50,266 bases of DNA from an uncultured Chthoniobacter sp. (lineage in GTDB: Bacteria > Verrucomicrobiota > Verrucomicrobiia > Chthoniobacterales > Chthoniobacteraceae). A model generated the notes under the pieces. The model ran no database searches. It was given only the letters and a program-made list of their open reading frames with translations, and had not been told where the DNA came from. The DNA lies in NCBI GenBank assembly GCA_903874975.1, contig CAIQUL010000075.1, forward strand, positions 1 to 50,266, in the 5' to 3' direction. Positions 31,055-42,161 of the stretch are shown in pieces. Each line of letters begins with the position of its first letter. Within the stretch, counting starts at the first letter, position 1. Both the position numbers and the translations under genes were made by a program.

Positions 31055-31839
31055 ACCCTCGCAGGCGGCGCGGTTTCACGCTCATCGAGCTGCTGGTCGT
31101 GGTCGCCATCATCGCGGTCCTCGCCGCGCTGCTGCTCCCCGCTTTCCACAATGCGAAGATCAGCTCCATGGCCGTCAAGAGCAGCCAGAACCTGCGCTCG
31201 CTCGTCGCGGCCAACCTCTCCTTCGCGGCCGACCAGGGATTTTATGCACCGGCCGACGATAAAAAGAACCACCGGCGCTGGCACGGGGCGCGGACCTCGG
31301 CGGGCGGACGCTTCGATCCCACGAAAGGCTTCCTCGCGCCGTATCTCGGGAAATCCGGCGAAGTGACGAAGTGCCCGCTGTTTACGCAGATGATCGCGGG
31401 CAAGAGCAGCTTTGAAGACGGGACCGGCGGCTACGGCTATAACGCCGCCTACATCGGCGGCATGCCGAGCGGGGCGTGGAATTCCGACGGCACCCGCGTC
31501 TCGGCCCAACCGCCGGGCATTGCCCGCCCTTCGCAGACGGTGATGTTTGGCACCACCGCCTATGCGGTCGGCAAGGGCGTGCAGGAGTATCCGTTTCTCG
31601 AACCGCCCTTTTGGGATTTTTGCACTGGTCCCAGCGGATCGCGCCCTTCGCCGAGTTTGCACTTTCGCTTTGGTGGCAAAGCGCTTGTCGGGTGGTGCGA
31701 CGGCCACACCAGCCTGGAGCAAAAGGGCACCCGCGCCGAGGGCGACAATCCCCACGGAGGGGATGCCGAGGCGCAAAATCTCGGATGGTTTGGTCCGGAC
31801 GAAAACAACGGCTACTGGAACCCGGAACGCGAACCCTGA
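31051..31839 (+). CDS. Prepilin-type (type II secretion pseudopilin-like) protein
   Basis: The 262-residue protein begins MNPRRRRGFTLIELLVVVAI, the N-methylation prepilin signal with cleavage after the glycine and the conserved +5 glutamate. The hydrophobic helix then runs to about residue 30. The rest is a verrucomicrobial prepilin-like globular domain ending in FGGKALVGWCDGHTSLEQ, close to the xxDGH tail seen in many PVC pseudopilins. A prepilin peptidase (PilD) elsewhere should process it. The ATG at 31051 overlaps the stop of the preceding gene, so the three genes are translated as a unit. It may help export or display the two surface proteins. Confidence 0.88.
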   Translation: MNPRRRRGFTLIELLVVVAIIAVLAALLLPAFHNAKISSMAVKSSQNLRSLVAANLSFAADQGFYAPADDKKNHRRWHGARTSAGGRFDPTKGFLAPYLGKSGEVTKCPLFTQMIAGKSSFEDGTGGYGYNAAYIGGMPSGAWNSDGTRVSAQPPGIARPSQTVMFGTTAYAVGKGVQEYPFLEPPFWDFCTGPSGSRPSPSLHFRFGGKALVGWCDGHTSLEQKGTRAEGDNPHGGDAEAQNLGWFGPDENNGYWNPEREP

Positions 31840-31945
31840 GCGACCGTTCTACCGGCGTGGAATCGGCTTGTGACCGAGGGGGATTCGGCTTAGGACAGAA
31901 AACTGCTTTGGAGAGTTTCTCCGCAGCACCACACGAAAGAGAAAT

Positions 31946-34900
31946 ATGGCCACACAAGCTGAAATCATCGTCCGAGATGGCGCGCGCGCACTCGGGCGAT
32001 ACGTCCTCGATCCGGGGGAGTATGTCATCGGCAGGGATTTGTCCTGCGATGTCCTGCTCGACTGCCACGGAATCTCGCGCCAGCACGCGAAACTCACCGT
32101 CACCCAAGACCACCTCACGGTCAGCGATCTCGGAAGCACGAATGGAACTTTTTACGGCGAAAGCCCGGTGCAGGGCTCGACGGCCGTCCGCTCGGGGGAC
32201 TCGATCCGCATGGGCACGGCAGGCACGGCGATCATTCGCCTGATTCAAAGTGCGAAGGGCACGAAAGGGAAGGGGAGCGGCAGTGGCAACGGGAACGGGA
32301 ATGGTCATCACACGGACGCACATCCGGCTTCCGCAGAGGAGTTGAAAAAGGCGCTCTCGGAGCGGGATGCCACGCGGAAAAAACATGACGAGCTGGCGGC
32401 ACAATTTGTGGCGGCTTCGCAGCAGCTCGCGTCGCTGAAGGCGGATCTGAACCGGAGCGCCGAGGCGTCCATGCAGGCGGCAAAGGATCTCGACGTGCGG
32501 ACGAAGGAATTGCTGGCGCTGAAATCGGCGCACAGCTCCGCGGCGGAGCAGAAAGCGCAGGCGCAGGCGCAGGTCGGCCAGCTCCAGGCGGAATTGCAAA
32601 AGCAGGCGGCAGCGCAGAAGTCCGGGCAGGACAAGAACGCGAGTGCGCAACTCGAACAGCTCTGCGCGGATTACGAAAAGCGCATCAAGGTGCTCGAAGA
32701 GGAGCGCACGGCGGCGCTCAAGGAGCGCGATGAATTGCAGGCGCGCTGGCAGCAGCGGGAAAAGGAGCAGCAGGAGCGGTCGGCGAAGATCGAGCAGGCG
32801 CAGAAGGCGCTCGCCGGCGAGAAGGACAAGGCGGTCGCGGAACTCGCGGCGGTGCGGGAGGCGCAGCAGAAGGAGATCAAAGCGGTTCGCGCGGAGGAGT
32901 CCGCCGCGGTGCAGGCGCGGGATCACGCGCTGGCCCAACTCGGCGAAGTGAAGAAGCAACAGCCGGCTGCGGACAAGATCGCGCAGATCGAAGAGGCGCA
33001 TCGTCAGCAGCTCGAAGCCGCCCAAGCCCAGCGCCAGACGGCGCTGCAGGAGCGCGACGAAGCGATCGGACGCGCGCAGGAATTTGCGGAGAAACAGAAA
33101 GCGGAGATGGGCGCTTTGACGAAAAAGCAGAACGAGGCCGTGCAGGAGAGCGCGCGGCAGATCGATGCGCTGACCAAGGCGCTCGAAGCGCAGAAGCGCG
33201 AAACCGCCGCCGTCGCGAAGCAGCGCGACGCGCTCGCCAAAGAGCAGGAGGCGCAGACCCGCAATCTCCAGGGCGAGAAGGCGAACGTGCGGAATCAGGC
33301 GCAAGCGCTCGCCGTGCAGCAGAGTCTCGCGACCGCGCGCGACCAGGCGCTCGCGCACCTCGAGGAACTCCGCGCGACCCATGAGCAGCGTCTCTCCGGC
33401 TTGCAAAACGAGCACGCCATCACGCTCCGCGAACGCGACGAAGCGCTGCACGGTCTGAACGCCCTCAATCTCGAGCAGAAGCAGCAGCTCGAAGCCGCCC
33501 TCCGCGAGCGCGACCAGGCCGCGGCCGATCGCGAGGCCGCGGGCGCGAAAGCCACGCCGATCGTGGCCGCGCAGCGCGAGCAGATCGCCTCGCTCGCCGG
33601 CGAGCGGGATGTCCTCGCCCGCGAGAAAGCGCAACTCGCGCAGCAGCTCGCCGGGGCGCAAAAAAGCGCCGAAGCCAGCAACGCCCGGCTGCACGAAGAC
33701 CGCACGAGGTTTGCCGCCGAGAAGCAGGCCGAACTCGCCGAGCTGCAAAACCTCCTCGAATCGCAGAAGGGCCAGCTCGCCTCCCTCGCGGAGCAGCGGG
33801 CCGTGATCGCGCAGGAGCACGGCGACGTTGTGGCCCGCGTGCAGGCGCTGCTCGCCGAGCATGAGAAAGAGCGCGCTGCCTTCGCCGAGCAGCGCGACCG
33901 GCTCATCTCCGAGCGTGACCAGGCCGCCGCGAAATTTGCCGAGCAGACCGAGGCGCACCGCCAGCACAGTGCGGCGAAGGACGACGAGCGGCAGAACCTC
34001 CTCGCCGCGCGCGACCAGGCGCTGGCCCATCTCGACGAACTGCGCGCCGCGCACGAGCAGCGGCTCGCCGCTTTGCACAGCGAGCACGCCATCACGCTCC
34101 GCGAACGCGATGAAGCGCTGCACGGTCTGAGCGCCCTCAACCTCGAACAGAAGCAGCAGCTCGAAGCCGCCCTCCGCGAGCGGGACCAGGCGACCACCGA
34201 CCGGGAGGCCGCCGTTGCGAGAGTCACACCCGTCGTGGCCGCGCAGCGCGAGCAGATCGCCTCGCTCGCCGCCGAGCGGGATGTCCTCGCTCGCGAGAAA
34301 GCGCAGCTCATCCAGCAGGCGGCCAGCGCCGAGAAAGCCGTCGAAAAGCGCGCCGCCCGGCTGGAGGAGGAGCGCGAAATATTCGCCGCCGAGAAACTCG
34401 CCGAGCTGACCGAACTCCAGAACCTGATCGAATCGCAGCAAGGCCAACTCGCCTCGCTCGCGCAGCAGCGCGCCGCGGTCGCGCAGGAGCACACCGACGC
34501 CGTCGGCCGCATCCAGGCGCTGGCCGCGGCGCAGGACAAGGAACGCCTCGCTTTCGCCGAGGAACGCGACCGCGCGACCGCGCACTTTGCCCAGCTCAGC
34601 GACGAGCAGAAGCGGCAGTTCACCGCGCTCTCGGAACAGCGCGACCGGCTCCTCGCCGAGCGCGATCACGGGATCGGGCAATTCGCGGAACTCACCGATG
34701 CCCACCGCCAGCACGCCAGCGCGAAGGACGCCGAGCGCCTGAATCTCGTCACCGCCCGCGATCTCAGCCTGGCCCATCTCGATGAAGTCCGCGCGGCGCA
34801 CGAAACGTATCTCACCGGTTTGAACGAGGCGCACGCCGTGGCCGTGCGCGAACGCGACCAGGCACTCCAGGCCGCGCAGGGGCTGACTTACGAGCAGAAG

Positions 34901-37900
34901 CAGCAGATCGAAACGCTCCTCCGCGAGCGCGACCAGGCCATCGCCGACCGCGAGGCCGCGGGCGCGAAAGTGACGCCCATCGTTTCCGCGCAGCGCGAGC
35001 AGATCGCCTCGCTCGCCGCCGAGCGCGACGTGCTGGCGCGGGAAAAGGCGCAGCTCGCCCACCAAGCCACCACCTCGCAGCAGGCGCTGGCTGCGCGGTT
35101 GCGGAGCATGGAGGAGGACTTGCAGAAAGCCGCCGCCGACCGGCAGGCGGAGGTGGCGGAATTGCACCGCGTGAACGCCGCCCAGCAGGAACAGCTCGCC
35201 TCGCTCACCGAGCAGCGCGCCCAGCTCGCCGCGGTGCGCGAGGAGCAGGAGGCCCACGCGGTCGCGCTGGCCGCAGGTTTTGAGAAAGAGCGCGCCGCGC
35301 TGGAGGCCCAGCGCCTCGGGCTGGTGCAGGAGCGCGACCAGTCCGCCGCGCAGTTTGCCAAGCTCAGCAACACCCAGAAAAAGCAGTTCAACAGCCTCGC
35401 CGTGCAGCGCGACCGCCTGCTCAAGGAGCGTGACGCCGCGCTCGCCCAAATCGCCCAGCTCGGCGAGCAGCACGAGGCCCGCGCCGCCGCGCACCTCACC
35501 GAGCGCCAGGAAATCGCCGCTTCCCGCGACCAGCTCGCGGCCGGCACCGATGAACTTCGCGCCACCTACGAGAGTCAGCTCGCGCCTTTGCAGGAAGAGC
35601 GCGACCAGGCGCTGCGCGACCGCGACGAAGCCCGCCGCCAGCTCACTGCCGTGGATGAAACCCGGCAGATGGAGATCGCCACTTTCAAACAGGAAGCTGA
35701 AAGCCAGGCCGCCGCCCTCGCCGAATCTGCCCGGCTCGCCGAGGCGCAAAAGACTCAGCTCGCGAGCCTCGCGGATGAGCGCGAGACCCTGGCCCGCGAG
35801 AAGGCGGATGCCGCCGAACGTTTCGCCGCTGAGCGCCAGACGCTCAACCAGCGCCAGCAGGCGATCGCCGCCGACCGGGAGAAGCTCATCGCGGACAAGG
35901 CCGCCGCGGTCACGGAACTGCACACCCTGATCGACAGCCAGAAGGCGCAGCACGAGGCGCTCAAGCAGCAGGCCGCGGCTCTCGCCAAAGAGCGCGACGA
36001 GGCGCTCGCGCTCGCCGCCGAGTACGACGAGCGCTGCCAGAAGCACGTCGCCGCCCTCGGTAGCTTCCGGGTCAGTTCCGAAGAGCAGCACGGGCAGTCG
36101 CTCGCGCAATTCAACACGCTGTCGGACGAGCTGAAGCTGCAGCTCGGCACCGTGTCCGAGCAGCGCGCGCAGCTCTTCGTGGAGCGCGACGCGGCGCTGG
36201 CGAAACTCGCCGAGCTCAGCGCGACGCACTCGAAACATGTCGCCGCCGCGGAGGCGGGAAAAAAGAAGCTGCTCGCCGCCCGGGCCCACACTGCGGGGCA
36301 GGTCATCGAGATCCGCGCGGCCTACAACCAGCAGGTCGCCGCCGCCAATGAACAGCACGCGCAGACCACCGCGCAATTCACGAAGTTCTCCGAAGAACTG
36401 CAGGTGCAGCTCGCCGCCGTCACCGAGCAGCGCGCCGCGCTGGTCATCGAGCGCGACGCTTTGCAGACCCAGTTCGCCGCGCTCTCCGAGACGCATGCGC
36501 AGCACACCGCCGCCGCGGAGGCCGAGCAGAAAAAACTTCTCGCCGCCCGCGAGCACGCCGTCGCGCAGGTCGCGGAAATCCGCGCCGAGTTTGACCGCCA
36601 GATCGCCACGCACGGCGACCAGAACACGCAGGCGCAGGCGCAGTTCACCGCGCTGGCCGGACAGCAGCAGGAGCAGATCGAGGCACTCGCCGGGCAGCGC
36701 GCCGCGCTCCTCGTCGAGCGCGATGCCGCCGTGGCGCAATTCGCCGCGCTGACCGAGACCCACCGCCAGCACCTCGCGGCGGCGGAGACGGAGAAAAAGA
36801 AGCTCCTCGCCGCGCGCGCCCACGCCATTGCCCAGGTCGGTGAAATCCGTGCGGCGTTTGAGCAGCAGTTTGTCGCCACCGGCGAGCAGCACGCCGTCAC
36901 ACTGCGCGAGCGCGACACCGCCCTCGTCCGTCATGGTGAGATCAATGCCGCGCTGCAAAAGCAGCTCGAGACGCTGACGGCGCAGCGCGACACGCTGGTC
37001 GCGGAAAACGCCGCCAATACCGGACGCACGACCAAGGAGATCAATGCGCTGCGCGCCGAGATTGCCGCTCGCGATGCCGACCAGACGCACGCGCAGGAGA
37101 AGGCCGCGGCCGCCGCGGAGTTCCAGCAGATCGTCGCCGGTCATCAGGCCGACATCGCCTCGCTGACCACTCAGCGGAACACGCTGGCCGCCGAGCGCGC
37201 CGGCGCACTGGCCCGCATCGAGGCGCTGACCGCCGCGCGGAAGCAGGAGTCCGCCGACCTCGCCGCGCATCGCTCCCAGCTCGTCAGCGAGCGTGAGGAA
37301 GCCGCCGGGCGTTTCGCCCAGCTCGCCGCCGAACACGCCGCGCACCTCGCAGACCTGACGACCCAGCGCACCGCGCTGGCCGCCGAGCGCGACAAGACGC
37401 TGGCCGACCTCGCCGCCCAGCGCGAAGCCGCGCTGGCGGAACTCACCGCCACCCGCGCCGCTCACGCGAATTCGCTGCGCGAGCGCGACGAAGCCACCGC
37501 CGCGCTGCGCAAGACGATCGAGGCGCGAGCCCAGCAAATCGTCGCGCTGAAGGAAGACCGCGAGATTTTTGCGAAGGATCGCCAGAAGCATCTCGGCTCC
37601 ATCGAGGCGGCGGCGGCGGCGACCCTCCTGGATCGCGAGAACACGCTCAGCGCCCTGCGCCAGCAGCTCGACGCGCAGCAGAAGCACAACGCCCAGCTCC
37701 AGACTCAGCTCGCCGCTTTGACGGAGGAAAAGGACAAGAGCAAACTCAGCCTCGCTGATCTCGTGGCCTCGCACGGCGGACAGATCGCCGCCTTTGCCGC
37801 CGAGCGCGCGGGACTCGTGCGCGCCCGGGAGGAGACGCTCGCCGAAGGGGCCGCGACCGCCGCCGCCCACGGGCAGCAGATCGCCGCGCTGACCGCGCAG

Positions 37901-40900
37901 CGCGATGACCTGCTCCGCCAGCGCGGCGAGATGACCACGCACTTCGGGGCGGTGGCCGTCGCGCAGAAGGCGCAGCTCGCCGCGCTCAGCCGCGAGCGCG
38001 ACAAGCTGCTCAAGGAACGCTCCAAGCCGTCGGTGCTTTTCTCGAACGTCAGCGATTCGCAGAAGAAGCAGATCGACACGCTCAGCCTCACCGCCGAGAC
38101 GCTGCGCAAAGAGCACGCCGCCGCGCAAGCCCAGCTCGCGGAGATCAATGCCGAGCAGCAGAAGCACATCGCCTCGCTCGTCGAGCAGCGCGACCAGCTC
38201 GTGCGGGAGCACGAGGCCGCTCACGCGCGCCTCGGTGAAACCAACGACGCGCAGAAAAAGCAGATCGAAAACCTCGGGCGCGAGCGCGCGGCGGTCTTGC
38301 AGGAAAGGGAGCTGGCTCTGGCCCGCCTGAACGAGGTCAACACCGCCCAGCTTCAGCAGATCGAAGCGCTCAACACGCAGCGCGCGGCGATCTTGAAAGA
38401 GAAGGAAGAGGCGCACGCCCGGCTGGCGCAGATCAATGCGGCCCAGCAGGCGCAGATCGCTTCGCTGGAGGAGGCGCGCGGCGCTTTCGCCGAGGAAAGC
38501 GAGCGCACCATCGCCGGGCTCCGGCAGGTTCACGAGGGGCAGAAAAAGCATGTCGAAACGGCCGACGCTGAGCGTCTCGCCGCGGTCCAAGCCCGCGAGC
38601 AGGCGACTGCCGAACTGAAGCGCATCAGCGACACCCAGCAGAAGCAGATCGGCGAACTCCAGCAGCAGCGCGCGCAGCTCACCAAGGAGCGCGACCGGCT
38701 CGCCGCGAATCTCGCCAAGGTCACGGAGACGCACACCGAGGAAATGGAGGTGCTTTCCGTCGCCAAAACCACGCTGGCGCAGGAGCGGGACCAGTCGTTC
38801 GCGCAGTTCACACAGGCCGACGAGGTACAAAAGCACCAGATCGCCGCCCTCACCGCGCAGCGCGACGAGGTCATCCAAGAGCGCGACACCGCCCGCGCCG
38901 AAGTCGCCAAGCTGGCCGCGGCGAGCAAGGTGGAGACGACGGAGCGCAATGAACAGCGTGCGGCTGTGATCGCCGAGCGCGACGCTGCACTGACGCGTTT
39001 CGCCGAGGTCAATCAGGCGCAGATCAAACAGCTCGAGTCGCTGACCCAGGAGCGCGAGGCTTTGCTGATGGAGAAGGATGCCGCCCTCGCCCGGCTCATG
39101 GCCATCACCAACGTGCAGAAGGCGCAGATCGAAACGCTCTGCAAGGAGCGCGACACCGTGGTGCGGGAAAAACAGACGACCGTGGCCGAGCTGACCCGCC
39201 TGAACCAGGCGCAGACCCACCAGATCGCCGAGCTCGAGCGGGATTCGCTCGGGATCATTCAGAGGCACGACGAAGCGCTCAAGCAGCTCCACTCCGTCAA
39301 CGCCACGCAACTCGACCAGATCGCCTCGCTGGACCGTCAGCGGCTCGAAGTGCTGGAACAGCGCGATGAGGCGCTGGCGCAATTCCAGCAGGTGAATGAG
39401 TCGCAGCTCATGAGCATCGCCCTTCTCTCCACCGAGCGCGACGGCCTGCTCCGCCAGCAGGAAGACGACGCCGCGAAGCGTGCGCAAATGCAGGAAAGAG
39501 ACAGCTCCGCGATCAAGGAACTCGACCGCGAGCGGGAGGAGATTTCCAAGAAAGTGGCCGAGGCTCAGGCCGCGCGGAACGCCATGCAGCGGGAGCGCGA
39601 CGAGGCGCTCGCCGTCCACGCCCGCGCGCGGGAAAATCACAAGCGCGAACTCGACAACCTCGCCCAGCAGCGCGAGACGCTGATCGACGAACGCGACCGC
39701 GCGCTCGTGAAATTGGAAACCATTTCCAACAACCGCGAAGGCGACCTCGCCGGCCTCGCGGAGATCAACGCCAAGCACAAGGAGGAGCTGGCCGGGATGG
39801 TCACGCAATTGAAGAAGACCGCCTCGGAACGCGACGAACTCATCGCCCGCCTCGACCGGCTCAAGGAAAGCCACAAGTCGCAAATCGACGAAGTCGTCCG
39901 CGAGCGGCTCAACGTCATCGAGGAGCGCGACAAGGCCACTGTCCGCCTGGAAAAGGCGCGCGAGGATTTGTCCACGAGCGAGGCGAACTTCGACACCGAG
40001 CGGCAGTATCTCATCAAGGAACGTGACAAGGTCTTTGCCCAGCTCGACGAAACCCGCAAAGCGCAGAAAGCGCTGGAGCAAACGCTCGACGAGAACTCCC
40101 CGCTCGCCCAGGAACTCGCCGTCGCGGAAAAAACGTGGCGCGCGCTCGACACCGGCAAAAACAAGGAAGCCGCGGCCAAGCTCGACAAGCTCTTTGGCAG
40201 CCTGCGGGCGCGACTGCGCGGCTCCCAGCAGCAGGTCACCGAGGTCAGCAAGCTCGAATCCTTCAAACTCACGCCGGCGGAGAAGCTCCTCGCCCGTCAC
40301 AAATACGAACTCGGCAGCGAAATCTCCCGCGACAAGTCCATCGTGCTCTACCGCGCGAAGGACATGAATATCTCCCGCGAGGTCACCATGAAGCTCGTTG
40401 GCGACGACGCCGCCTCGCGTGACGCCGCCATCGCGCAACTCATCGCCGAGGCGCAGATGATCGGTCGCCTCGAGCATCCCAATATCCAGCCGCTGCACGA
40501 ACTGAGCGTAGATGACTCGGGTCGCGCCTTCTACACGGCCAAGCCGATGAAAGGCTCCACGCTCGCCAAGATCCTCGACGATCTGCGCGCGAAAAAATCG
40601 AGCGCCCTTGTCGCCTTCGACCTGAAGAAAATCCTCTCCACCTTCCACGGCGTGTGCGATGCCGTCGCCTTTGCCCACTCGGAAGGAATCGTCCACGGAC
40701 GCCTCAGCGCCGAGCACATCCAAATGGGCGACTACGGCGAAGTCCTCGTCACTGGCTGGGAGATGGGCCGCAAAATCCGCGAAGGCAACGTCAACCACTA
40801 CGAAGCCGACGTCCGCGTGGACATCGCCGCCCTCGGCGACCTGCTCTACCACATCCTCACGCTCACTCCGCCGGCAGCGGACAAAAAGGAGGTTGCCAGC

Positions 40901-41101
40901 GCTCCGCACGCGAATTGGAAAATGCCGAAAGGCCTCTGGACGCTCACCCAGCAGATTCGCTCCAACCGCGGCGCCACCGCCTACCCGCGCGTCGCCAAGC
41001 TGCAAACGGAAGTCGAGGACTTCCGCGACGAACTCGGGCCACGCGGCGGCCGCGCCACCGCCTTCGACGTGCTCAAGCAGAGCGTGCAAAAGTGGCAGTA
41101 G
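31946..41101 (+). CDS. Giant FHA-coiled-coil-pseudokinase protein
   Basis: The 3,051-residue protein has three parts. Residues 1-100 are an FHA phosphothreonine-binding domain with GR (29-30), SRQH (44-47) and STNGT (64-68). Residues 140-2770 are almost continuous Glu/Gln/Ala/Leu/Arg-rich coiled coil built from long repeats: units of about 225-255 residues starting near 464, 690, 938 and 1194, then about 89-residue units near 1400-1650, then about 26-31-residue units. Residues 2786-3030 have a protein-kinase fold. K2816 (VTMKLV) and the following AEAQMIGRLEHPNI are kept, but the HRD motif reads HGR (2917-2919), the metal-binding Asn is H2924 and the DFG/DWG aspartate is G2937. It should therefore be a pseudokinase. 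There is no signal peptide, so it is a cytoplasmic scaffold, probably reading phosphorylation by another kinase. Confidence 0.9.
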   Translation: MATQAEIIVRDGARALGRYVLDPGEYVIGRDLSCDVLLDCHGISRQHAKLTVTQDHLTVSDLGSTNGTFYGESPVQGSTAVRSGDSIRMGTAGTAIIRLIQSAKGTKGKGSGSGNGNGNGHHTDAHPASAEELKKALSERDATRKKHDELAAQFVAASQQLASLKADLNRSAEASMQAAKDLDVRTKELLALKSAHSSAAEQKAQAQAQVGQLQAELQKQAAAQKSGQDKNASAQLEQLCADYEKRIKVLEEERTAALKERDELQARWQQREKEQQERSAKIEQAQKALAGEKDKAVAELAAVREAQQKEIKAVRAEESAAVQARDHALAQLGEVKKQQPAADKIAQIEEAHRQQLEAAQAQRQTALQERDEAIGRAQEFAEKQKAEMGALTKKQNEAVQESARQIDALTKALEAQKRETAAVAKQRDALAKEQEAQTRNLQGEKANVRNQAQALAVQQSLATARDQALAHLEELRATHEQRLSGLQNEHAITLRERDEALHGLNALNLEQKQQLEAALRERDQAAADREAAGAKATPIVAAQREQIASLAGERDVLAREKAQLAQQLAGAQKSAEASNARLHEDRTRFAAEKQAELAELQNLLESQKGQLASLAEQRAVIAQEHGDVVARVQALLAEHEKERAAFAEQRDRLISERDQAAAKFAEQTEAHRQHSAAKDDERQNLLAARDQALAHLDELRAAHEQRLAALHSEHAITLRERDEALHGLSALNLEQKQQLEAALRERDQATTDREAAVARVTPVVAAQREQIASLAAERDVLAREKAQLIQQAASAEKAVEKRAARLEEEREIFAAEKLAELTELQNLIESQQGQLASLAQQRAAVAQEHTDAVGRIQALAAAQDKERLAFAEERDRATAHFAQLSDEQKRQFTALSEQRDRLLAERDHGIGQFAELTDAHRQHASAKDAERLNLVTARDLSLAHLDEVRAAHETYLTGLNEAHAVAVRERDQALQAAQGLTYEQKQQIETLLRERDQAIADREAAGAKVTPIVSAQREQIASLAAERDVLAREKAQLAHQATTSQQALAARLRSMEEDLQKAAADRQAEVAELHRVNAAQQEQLASLTEQRAQLAAVREEQEAHAVALAAGFEKERAALEAQRLGLVQERDQSAAQFAKLSNTQKKQFNSLAVQRDRLLKERDAALAQIAQLGEQHEARAAAHLTERQEIAASRDQLAAGTDELRATYESQLAPLQEERDQALRDRDEARRQLTAVDETRQMEIATFKQEAESQAAALAESARLAEAQKTQLASLADERETLAREKADAAERFAAERQTLNQRQQAIAADREKLIADKAAAVTELHTLIDSQKAQHEALKQQAAALAKERDEALALAAEYDERCQKHVAALGSFRVSSEEQHGQSLAQFNTLSDELKLQLGTVSEQRAQLFVERDAALAKLAELSATHSKHVAAAEAGKKKLLAARAHTAGQVIEIRAAYNQQVAAANEQHAQTTAQFTKFSEELQVQLAAVTEQRAALVIERDALQTQFAALSETHAQHTAAAEAEQKKLLAAREHAVAQVAEIRAEFDRQIATHGDQNTQAQAQFTALAGQQQEQIEALAGQRAALLVERDAAVAQFAALTETHRQHLAAAETEKKKLLAARAHAIAQVGEIRAAFEQQFVATGEQHAVTLRERDTALVRHGEINAALQKQLETLTAQRDTLVAENAANTGRTTKEINALRAEIAARDADQTHAQEKAAAAAEFQQIVAGHQADIASLTTQRNTLAAERAGALARIEALTAARKQESADLAAHRSQLVSEREEAAGRFAQLAAEHAAHLADLTTQRTALAAERDKTLADLAAQREAALAELTATRAAHANSLRERDEATAALRKTIEARAQQIVALKEDREIFAKDRQKHLGSIEAAAAATLLDRENTLSALRQQLDAQQKHNAQLQTQLAALTEEKDKSKLSLADLVASHGGQIAAFAAERAGLVRAREETLAEGAATAAAHGQQIAALTAQRDDLLRQRGEMTTHFGAVAVAQKAQLAALSRERDKLLKERSKPSVLFSNVSDSQKKQIDTLSLTAETLRKEHAAAQAQLAEINAEQQKHIASLVEQRDQLVREHEAAHARLGETNDAQKKQIENLGRERAAVLQERELALARLNEVNTAQLQQIEALNTQRAAILKEKEEAHARLAQINAAQQAQIASLEEARGAFAEESERTIAGLRQVHEGQKKHVETADAERLAAVQAREQATAELKRISDTQQKQIGELQQQRAQLTKERDRLAANLAKVTETHTEEMEVLSVAKTTLAQERDQSFAQFTQADEVQKHQIAALTAQRDEVIQERDTARAEVAKLAAASKVETTERNEQRAAVIAERDAALTRFAEVNQAQIKQLESLTQEREALLMEKDAALARLMAITNVQKAQIETLCKERDTVVREKQTTVAELTRLNQAQTHQIAELERDSLGIIQRHDEALKQLHSVNATQLDQIASLDRQRLEVLEQRDEALAQFQQVNESQLMSIALLSTERDGLLRQQEDDAAKRAQMQERDSSAIKELDREREEISKKVAEAQAARNAMQRERDEALAVHARARENHKRELDNLAQQRETLIDERDRALVKLETISNNREGDLAGLAEINAKHKEELAGMVTQLKKTASERDELIARLDRLKESHKSQIDEVVRERLNVIEERDKATVRLEKAREDLSTSEANFDTERQYLIKERDKVFAQLDETRKAQKALEQTLDENSPLAQELAVAEKTWRALDTGKNKEAAAKLDKLFGSLRARLRGSQQQVTEVSKLESFKLTPAEKLLARHKYELGSEISRDKSIVLYRAKDMNISREVTMKLVGDDAASRDAAIAQLIAEAQMIGRLEHPNIQPLHELSVDDSGRAFYTAKPMKGSTLAKILDDLRAKKSSALVAFDLKKILSTFHGVCDAVAFAHSEGIVHGRLSAEHIQMGDYGEVLVTGWEMGRKIREGNVNHYEADVRVDIAALGDLLYHILTLTPPAADKKEVASAPHANWKMPKGLWTLTQQIRSNRGATAYPRVAKLQTEVEDFRDELGPRGGRATAFDVLKQSVQKWQ

Positions 41102-41135
41102 TGCACGCCTCACGCGCGGCCCGGAAGCGGGTGTG

Positions 41136-41520: not shown

Positions 41521-41573
41521 GTTCGGGTTGAAATCGCCTCAAGAAACGCGATCCCTGCCAGGCCGCGCTGACG

Positions 41574-42161
41574 GTGCGAGTTCTTACTGCCGCCGGACGG
41601 AGGCGCTGGGTGCAGCGGCTCGACGACCGGGCGCGCGCCGAGGCGCGGGACTGCTGCGGAGTCCCCGCACCGGGGCCGGAGCCGGATGGCCGGCGGAGCG
41701 ATCTGCGCCGGGGCTGGTATTGGGGCAGCCAGGCATTTGCGGAACGGATGCTCAAGGTGGGCGCGGCGGTGCTCAAGAAGCCGCGCCATCGCAGCGACCG
41801 GGCAAGCCCGGACCGGCGCGCGCACGGGGAACAGGAAGCCCGGCGGTTGCTGGCCGAAGGGACGGCGGTCGCCGGGTTGAGCGAGGCCGCCCTGAAGAAG
41901 CTGCCGGGAAGCGACCCACGGAAGGTGGCCATTGCGCGGTTGATTTGGGAGCAAACGGCCGTGGGCATGGCCTGGCTGGCGGCGCACCTTCACCTGCGCA
42001 GTGCAGCCAATGCCAGCCAGCAAATCCGCCGTCACCGCCAACAACCGCCCAAATTGTCAAAAGCCAGGCAACGATGGATGCTCCAGTCAAAAATGTTGCC
42101 TGCCCCCTATTTCCGCGTTCTCACCGTCCCCGGTGCGGCGGGCGTGAAAGTAAATTCCTAG
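41574..42161 (+). pseudogene. 3' part of a REP-associated tyrosine transposase (RAYT)
   Basis: The frame encodes the C-terminal half of a RAYT: VLTAAGRRRWVQRLDDRARA, RRGWYWGSQAFAERMLKVGA, GSDPRKVAIARLIWEQTAVG and MAWLAAHLHLRSAANASQQI. The N-terminal half, with the HUH histidines and the catalytic tyrosine region, is absent, and only a GTG serves as start. RAYTs are single-copy domesticated IS200-like transposases that move REP palindromes. The frame ends at TAG within AAATTCCTAGCAGC (42152-42165), a motif seen again at 20947 and 50124. It is most likely inactive. Confidence 0.75.

Follow-up and report, generated by a model that had tools for sequence, protein, structure and literature searches.

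A giant FHA-coiled coil-pseudokinase protein of Chthoniobacter-like Verrucomicrobiota in which one arm of the rod keeps its length

Eukaryotic cells offer familiar examples of giant coiled-coil tethers that bear a recognition domain at either end, and to our knowledge such two-headed tethers are little known in bacteria. Scaffolds that pair a pseudokinase with an FHA domain have precedents in MviN with FhaA, where the pairing is phospho-dependent (PMC12599244), and in the YukC pseudokinase with YukB, where it is phospho-independent and the FHA domain is without its binding residues (PMC9600267). Coiled coils of conserved length but divergent sequence are regarded as spacers (PMC5082667), and for HMW2 a coiled-coil ruler in a bacterium has been proved by engineering (PMC8191905).

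The gene described here lies on contig C75 of a Verrucomicrobiota, Chthoniobacter-like draft genome (3.86 Mb, 96% complete), within the window, by which is meant the whole stretch of 50,266 nucleotides that was analysed. It is an open reading frame without internal stop (Table 1), preceded by an AG-rich stretch gaaagagaaatATG, with gaaagagaaat directly 5' of the ATG, and its predicted product has a pI of 5.9 and no transmembrane or signal segment, the maximal 19-residue Kyte-Doolittle value being 1.17. The parts are of known kinds; their combination and the quantised, one-sided length-lock of the rod are new, and no earlier description of an FHA-rod-pseudokinase architecture was found in the literature.

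Table 1. Positions in the window of the giant gene and of the features that it encodes
Feature	Positions	Strand	Remarks
Whole gene	31946..41101	+	3,051 aa, 336 kDa
FHA domain	32003..32239	+	Pfam residues 26-90; R30, S44, N66 kept
Gly/Asn-rich linker past FHA domain	32252..32350	+	sequence
N-arm, FHA-side coiled coil of 32-residue units	32351..37975	+	length varies among orthologues
Conserved mid-rod hinge KPSVLFSNVSDSQKKQI, P2028	38009..38077	+	
C-arm, ~22 units of 32 residues, ~105 nm as straight helix	38078..40150	+	length-locked in orthologues
C-terminal pseudokinase domain	40268..41098	+	
beta3 (VAIK) lysine K2816, retained	40391..40393	+	
HGR in place of HRD (residues 2917-2919)	40694..40702	+	
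GWE in place of D[F/W]G (2937-2939), then activation-segment deletion	40754..40762	+	

A search of 40 genomes of the bacterial family found four orthologues with the same FHA-rod-pseudokinase plan, all of them in MAGs (three of the same genus and one of a sister genus, deposited as Chthoniobacter sp. or Spartobacteria), of which two are fragmented across contigs and one is interrupted by an in-frame stop. That of genome G003 is complete at 2,286 residues; that of G001 (2,787 residues) has its single stop at residue 1211 (L028 5505-5507), a real mutation or a MAG error; that of G011 comprises at least 2,600 residues and an FHA-bearing N-terminal part on a separate contig; and that of G002 is spread over three contigs. 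The gene is absent from G004, which is placed in the same genus. Nothing beyond the five genomes was matched by a C-arm query of the 40 family genomes at 1e-20, no further member by a pseudokinase profile run at 1e-50 on 388 genomes across the phylum, and in 197 genomes of the order (1e-40) the matches outside the family scored only as ordinary kinases do. The giant proteins form a real, conserved and narrowly distributed family.

At the N-terminus the FHA match is strong (Pfam E 5e-16, 59.4 bits against a cut-off of 20.7), and the phosphothreonine-contacting residues are in place, as the earlier note had claimed (GR, SxxH and SxNG), with R30, S44, R45, H47, S64 and N66 all present and invariant among the orthologues aligned. 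Phosphothreonine binding is predicted for this end.

The rod runs from about residue 111 to 2735 (~2,625 residues, near the ~2,650 first estimated), is rich in A, E, Q, L and R, contains 8 prolines, and amounts to a coiled coil in which a 32-residue unit is repeated ~82 times. In its autocorrelation the prevailing signals come at lag 32 (z 26-29) and the multiples of it, and the sustained hydrophobic period of 3.555, which equals 32/9 and lies in the 3.5-3.6 range of coiled coils, has a windowed power of 1.11 against 0.21 in shuffles. A cyclic 32-state model reaches 0.549 nats per residue, and the rival units of 7, 11 and the remaining lengths in the range 28-36, with 0.362 at most, were rejected. 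The unit consensus LTAERDALARERDEALAQLAELREAQKQQIAA is hydrophobic at positions 1, 8, 15/16, 19, 22 and 30 and favours Arg at 5 and 12, charged residues are fixed in unit phase (R5, E11 and R12 at 61-65%), and the core spacing of 3-4-3-4-3-4-3-4-4 is read as three heptads and one hendecad (7-7-7-11). The period of 32 recurs in the orthologues and in two shorter proteins, of genomes G007 and G012, that are considered below. As a monomer, a 300-residue piece of the C-arm was modelled by AF2 as helix throughout with a low-confidence break at 154-160; the C-arm had no match among solved structures, and the giant protein has no Pfam match to an ABC ATPase such as would indicate SMC-like heads.

Three T-P sites occur in duplicated modules of the N-arm (P538, P762 and P1011, at about nucleotides 33557, 34229 and 34976), each TPIV or TPVV followed by AQREQ and with 224 residues, or 7 units, between P538 and P762; these are possible kinks or phosphosites. 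Elsewhere in the family another giant rod, a separate 2,494-residue coiled-coil protein (G012:C58, L096 5500-12981, + strand), has a non-FHA N-terminal region with repeated short motifs and shows lags of 11, 54 and 43 ahead of 32; the long coils of this lineage therefore do not all follow the 32-residue rule.

The earlier note had pictured a rod of hundreds of nanometres, if continuous, and of this the coiled coil stands but the continuity does not, since the proline motif KPSVLFSNVSDSQKKQI is found mid-rod in all four rods that cover the region and separates, by straight-helix arithmetic at 0.1485 nm per residue, an N-arm of ~285 nm from the shorter C-arm. From the hinge to the start of the pseudokinase there are 747, 747, 748 and 814 residues. 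Aligned with G001 the C-arm runs over 781 residues with zero gaps at 65% identity, with G011 it has a single 1-residue gap at 44% identity, with G003 gaps of 32, 32 and 3, and over the 577 C-arm residues matched in G002 the query and subject lengths are equal. The C-arm register is no artefact of the repeats, because identity falls to ~0.30 when the ungapped alignment is shifted by 32 in either direction and to 0.05-0.26 at other shifts. The matching N-arm comparisons (G001 and G011) hold 17 and 44 gaps; if gaps were as frequent in the C-arm, it should show 8.1 and 32 of them (P 3e-4 and 6e-11). The N-arms that are complete measure about 1,918, 1,655 and 1,086 residues. Length kept while sequence diverges, as for coiled-coil spacers, is a property of the C-arm only, and the N-arm does not have it. 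The orthologues amount to a natural experiment on rod length, in which the N-arm drifts freely and the C-arm shifts by 32-residue units (32+32+3 in G003), and their rod lengths make the idea of a molecular ruler directly testable.

Read from sequence, the constancy of the C-arm through evolution suggests a molecular spacer or tether. We put at about one half the probability that the giant protein serves as a soluble coiled-coil tether or scaffold, most likely a parallel dimer, with partners docked by the FHA and pseudokinase domains and the C-arm acting as a length-selected spacer between hinge and pseudokinase. The FHA end would dock a protein phosphorylated on threonine by an active Hanks kinase of the cell, and the pseudokinase end would be a protein-docking module for a second partner and not an enzyme. 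Selection on C-arm length would hold the pseudokinase fixed ~105 nm from the hinge, and the FHA-side arm, joined via that hinge, would be a longer leash the exact length of which matters less. A scaffold on the scale of the cell, as first envisaged from the DNA, is plausible.

Constancy of C-arm length could alternatively reflect a need to pack in register within a filament or bundle and not a spacer role. Crescentin, an intermediate-filament-like protein, offers the parallel for in-register packing. A self-assembling filament, in which rods associate side by side or end to end, the 32-residue unit sets the stagger and the C-arm is locked by the packing, would account for the strict periodicity, the charged residues at fixed unit phases and C-arm insertions of exactly 32 or 64, but more than half of the rod, namely the N-arm, is free of any length constraint and has many phase jumps, and we regard such a filament as unlikely.

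Under the tether reading the C-terminal domain would serve in docking. The Pfam Pkinase match (E 1.4e-6) falls under the curated cut-off, and the AF2 model (mean pLDDT 81.5, pTM 0.75, from 30 aligned sequences) retrieves M. tuberculosis PknB first in Foldseek (probability 1.0, E 1e-13), in keeping with a bilobal Hanks-type fold and with the kinase fold proposed beforehand. Besides HGR for HRD, H2924 replaces the metal-binding Asn and G2937 the DFG Asp, these substitutions and the retained VAIK lysine being all as the earlier note had read them, and also gone are the whole activation segment through the SPE motif and the glycine loop (RGGMG to SRDKS). Kept in every copy covering those positions are beta3 K2816 and the alphaC Glu. 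The giant protein reads HGRLSAEH ... LVTGWEM where active relatives in the same bacterial family read HRDLKPEN ... LVMDWGL ... GTPxYxSPEQARG, and across the five copies (its own and the four orthologues) the motifs are HG[R/H/K], H, R or C for the metal Asn, and [T/S]GWE. None of the five has the HRD Asp, metal Asn, DFG Asp and activation segment of an active Ser/Thr kinase. Orthologues with intact HRD and DFG, which would have spoken for local decay, were looked for and the losses were met in every one instead; local decay is rejected on these common losses, and the domain is a pseudokinase with catalytic residues lost alike across orthologues. It is moreover the most conserved part of the protein, at 82% amino acid identity with G001 compared with 64% for the C-arm and 55% for the N-arm. 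Its invariant Thr residues (T119 and T227, A1 numbering) are mostly Thr in active kinases too, which leaves no special phosphosite candidate.

Nucleotide binding by the domain would be possible only in a metal-independent form, for which the kept Lys and Glu speak. The protein might then be a signalling sensor, its pseudokinase binding nucleotide or exerting allosteric control over an active kinase while the rod relays FHA binding. Such a sensor could draw on those two residues and on the active FHA-kinase relatives encoded in the same genome, but the domain has lost its activation segment, its glycine loop and both metal ligands, relay across ~390 nm of hinged coiled coil is implausible and no conserved kinase neighbour gene was seen, so that this reading appears distinctly improbable. 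By analogy with FhaA-MviN one might also picture a phospho-switchable cytoskeletal polymer, in which each FHA head would recognise a phosphothreonine in the pseudokinase tail of the following rod, an active kinase would control end-to-end assembly of ~390-nm rods and the C-arm would set the spacing; we hold this to be a long shot.

The family adds a group to the bacterial pseudokinases, and the active kinases closest to it are FHA-kinase receptors. Seven published bacterial pseudokinase families (ActPs1-3, GLW, CP1, DYD and DLHK) were considered by their text (PMC12599244), and GLW (GLW for HRD, beta3 Lys lost) and DLHK (HRD Asp kept), compared with the published descriptions only, do not fit. 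In a tree of 30 kinase domains, to be read with a long-branch warning, the five giant-protein copies and the G007 and G012 proteins (767 and 946 residues) share one clade with support of 100/98. The latter two have a coiled coil, pseudokinase and TM order and no FHA domain, with hydrophobic segments of 3.2 and 2.3 (Kyte-Doolittle). In the active FHA-kinases of the family the TM helix sits at the same place as in these two (LKQLALWAVRHK and then the TM), and the giant proteins stop at the matching pre-TM helix, ...FDVLKQSVQKWQ. An ancestral membrane receptor kinase may have become inactive first and shed its membrane anchor afterwards, acquiring the rod on the way, and repurposing of a receptor kinase into a soluble structural protein is likely. 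The active kinases of the family (loci L015-L027 and L034) have DWG instead of DFG, and some genomes give 20-30 kinase matches. A more distant pseudokinase is encoded in the same genome as the giant protein (G000:C123, L039 5873-6862, - strand) in a 341-residue frame where HCT stands in place of HRD and NNW in that of DFG (kinase domain in Pfam, 74 bits).

In the window a pseudopilin-like gene ends 106 bp upstream of the giant gene, and T2SSE (PilB/GspE) or T2SSF (PilC/GspF) genes adjoin the orthologue in G002, G003 and G011, and so in three of the five genomes. These adjacencies could make the protein a part of, or a tether to, type IV pilus or type II secretion-like machines. The adjacent component varies by genome, though, and G001 has a beta-lactamase-family gene beside the orthologue and neither T2SSE nor T2SSF; PilC and PilB are multi-copy (2-5 and 3-6 matches per genome) and the adjacency was spotted after the fact. 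With a varying component and multi-copy genes it is a weak lead, and we think such a link very unlikely. Downstream, the listed start of a GDSL/DUF7133/cytochrome c frame looks too early (41528-42050), the stretch before about 42100 reading as unrelated, possibly transposase-derived sequence, and an IS4-type transposase lies close to the contig end (48487-49956, +).

An antisense frame of 3,243 codons (31382-41113, -) mirrors the whole gene and is put down to high GC and codon choice. Its equivalent holds 4 and 10 stops in orthologues, and in each of the regions tested conservation against both orthologues is lowest at third codon positions (C-arm identities at positions 1/2/3 being, for example, 76/81/62%); the + strand is therefore the coding one, and the antisense frame was rejected as a gene. 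That the giant gene itself is a chance long frame or decayed pseudogene, to which GC-rich DNA able to hold the antisense frame open and the in-frame stop in the G001 copy could lend colour, has next to no likelihood and is refuted by the orthologues, given the domain homology, the third-position pattern, the common catalytic losses and the kept C-arm length.

Among known systems, the Mycobacterium pair of MviN (an ActPs3 pseudokinase) and FhaA resembles the giant protein in role, as a pseudokinase-FHA scaffold, but consists of two separate proteins with no giant rod. EssB/YukC with EssC/YukB of the T7SSb likewise docks a pseudokinase to FHA domains, although these are membrane secretion-system proteins in which the FHA phosphate-binding residues, kept in the giant protein, are lost (PMC9600267). 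HMW2 of Mycoplasma pneumoniae is a long bacterial coiled coil that determines a structure through its length, but has 1,818 residues and 11 separate coils, and no FHA or kinase domain is mentioned in its description (PMC8191905). For WbdD of E. coli O9a, a kinase/methyltransferase regulator of chain length, a coiled coil is discussed as molecular ruler (PMC3482155); this is an active enzyme of a polysaccharide pathway with no giant rod. Closer by descent, verrucomicrobial FHA-kinase-TM receptors (G000:C85 of the same genome, 568 residues, and others) share the kinase subfamily, N-terminal FHA domain and pre-TM helix, but are catalytically intact (HRDLKPEN, DWG) and have a TM helix and no giant rod, the giant protein ending just before the TM position. 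These active receptors are the wider family, and the nearest kin are the G007 and G012 proteins, which have the 32-residue rod period and the pseudokinase clade in common with the giant protein and differ from it in the missing FHA domain, a rod of only ~385-485 residues and a predicted membrane anchor.
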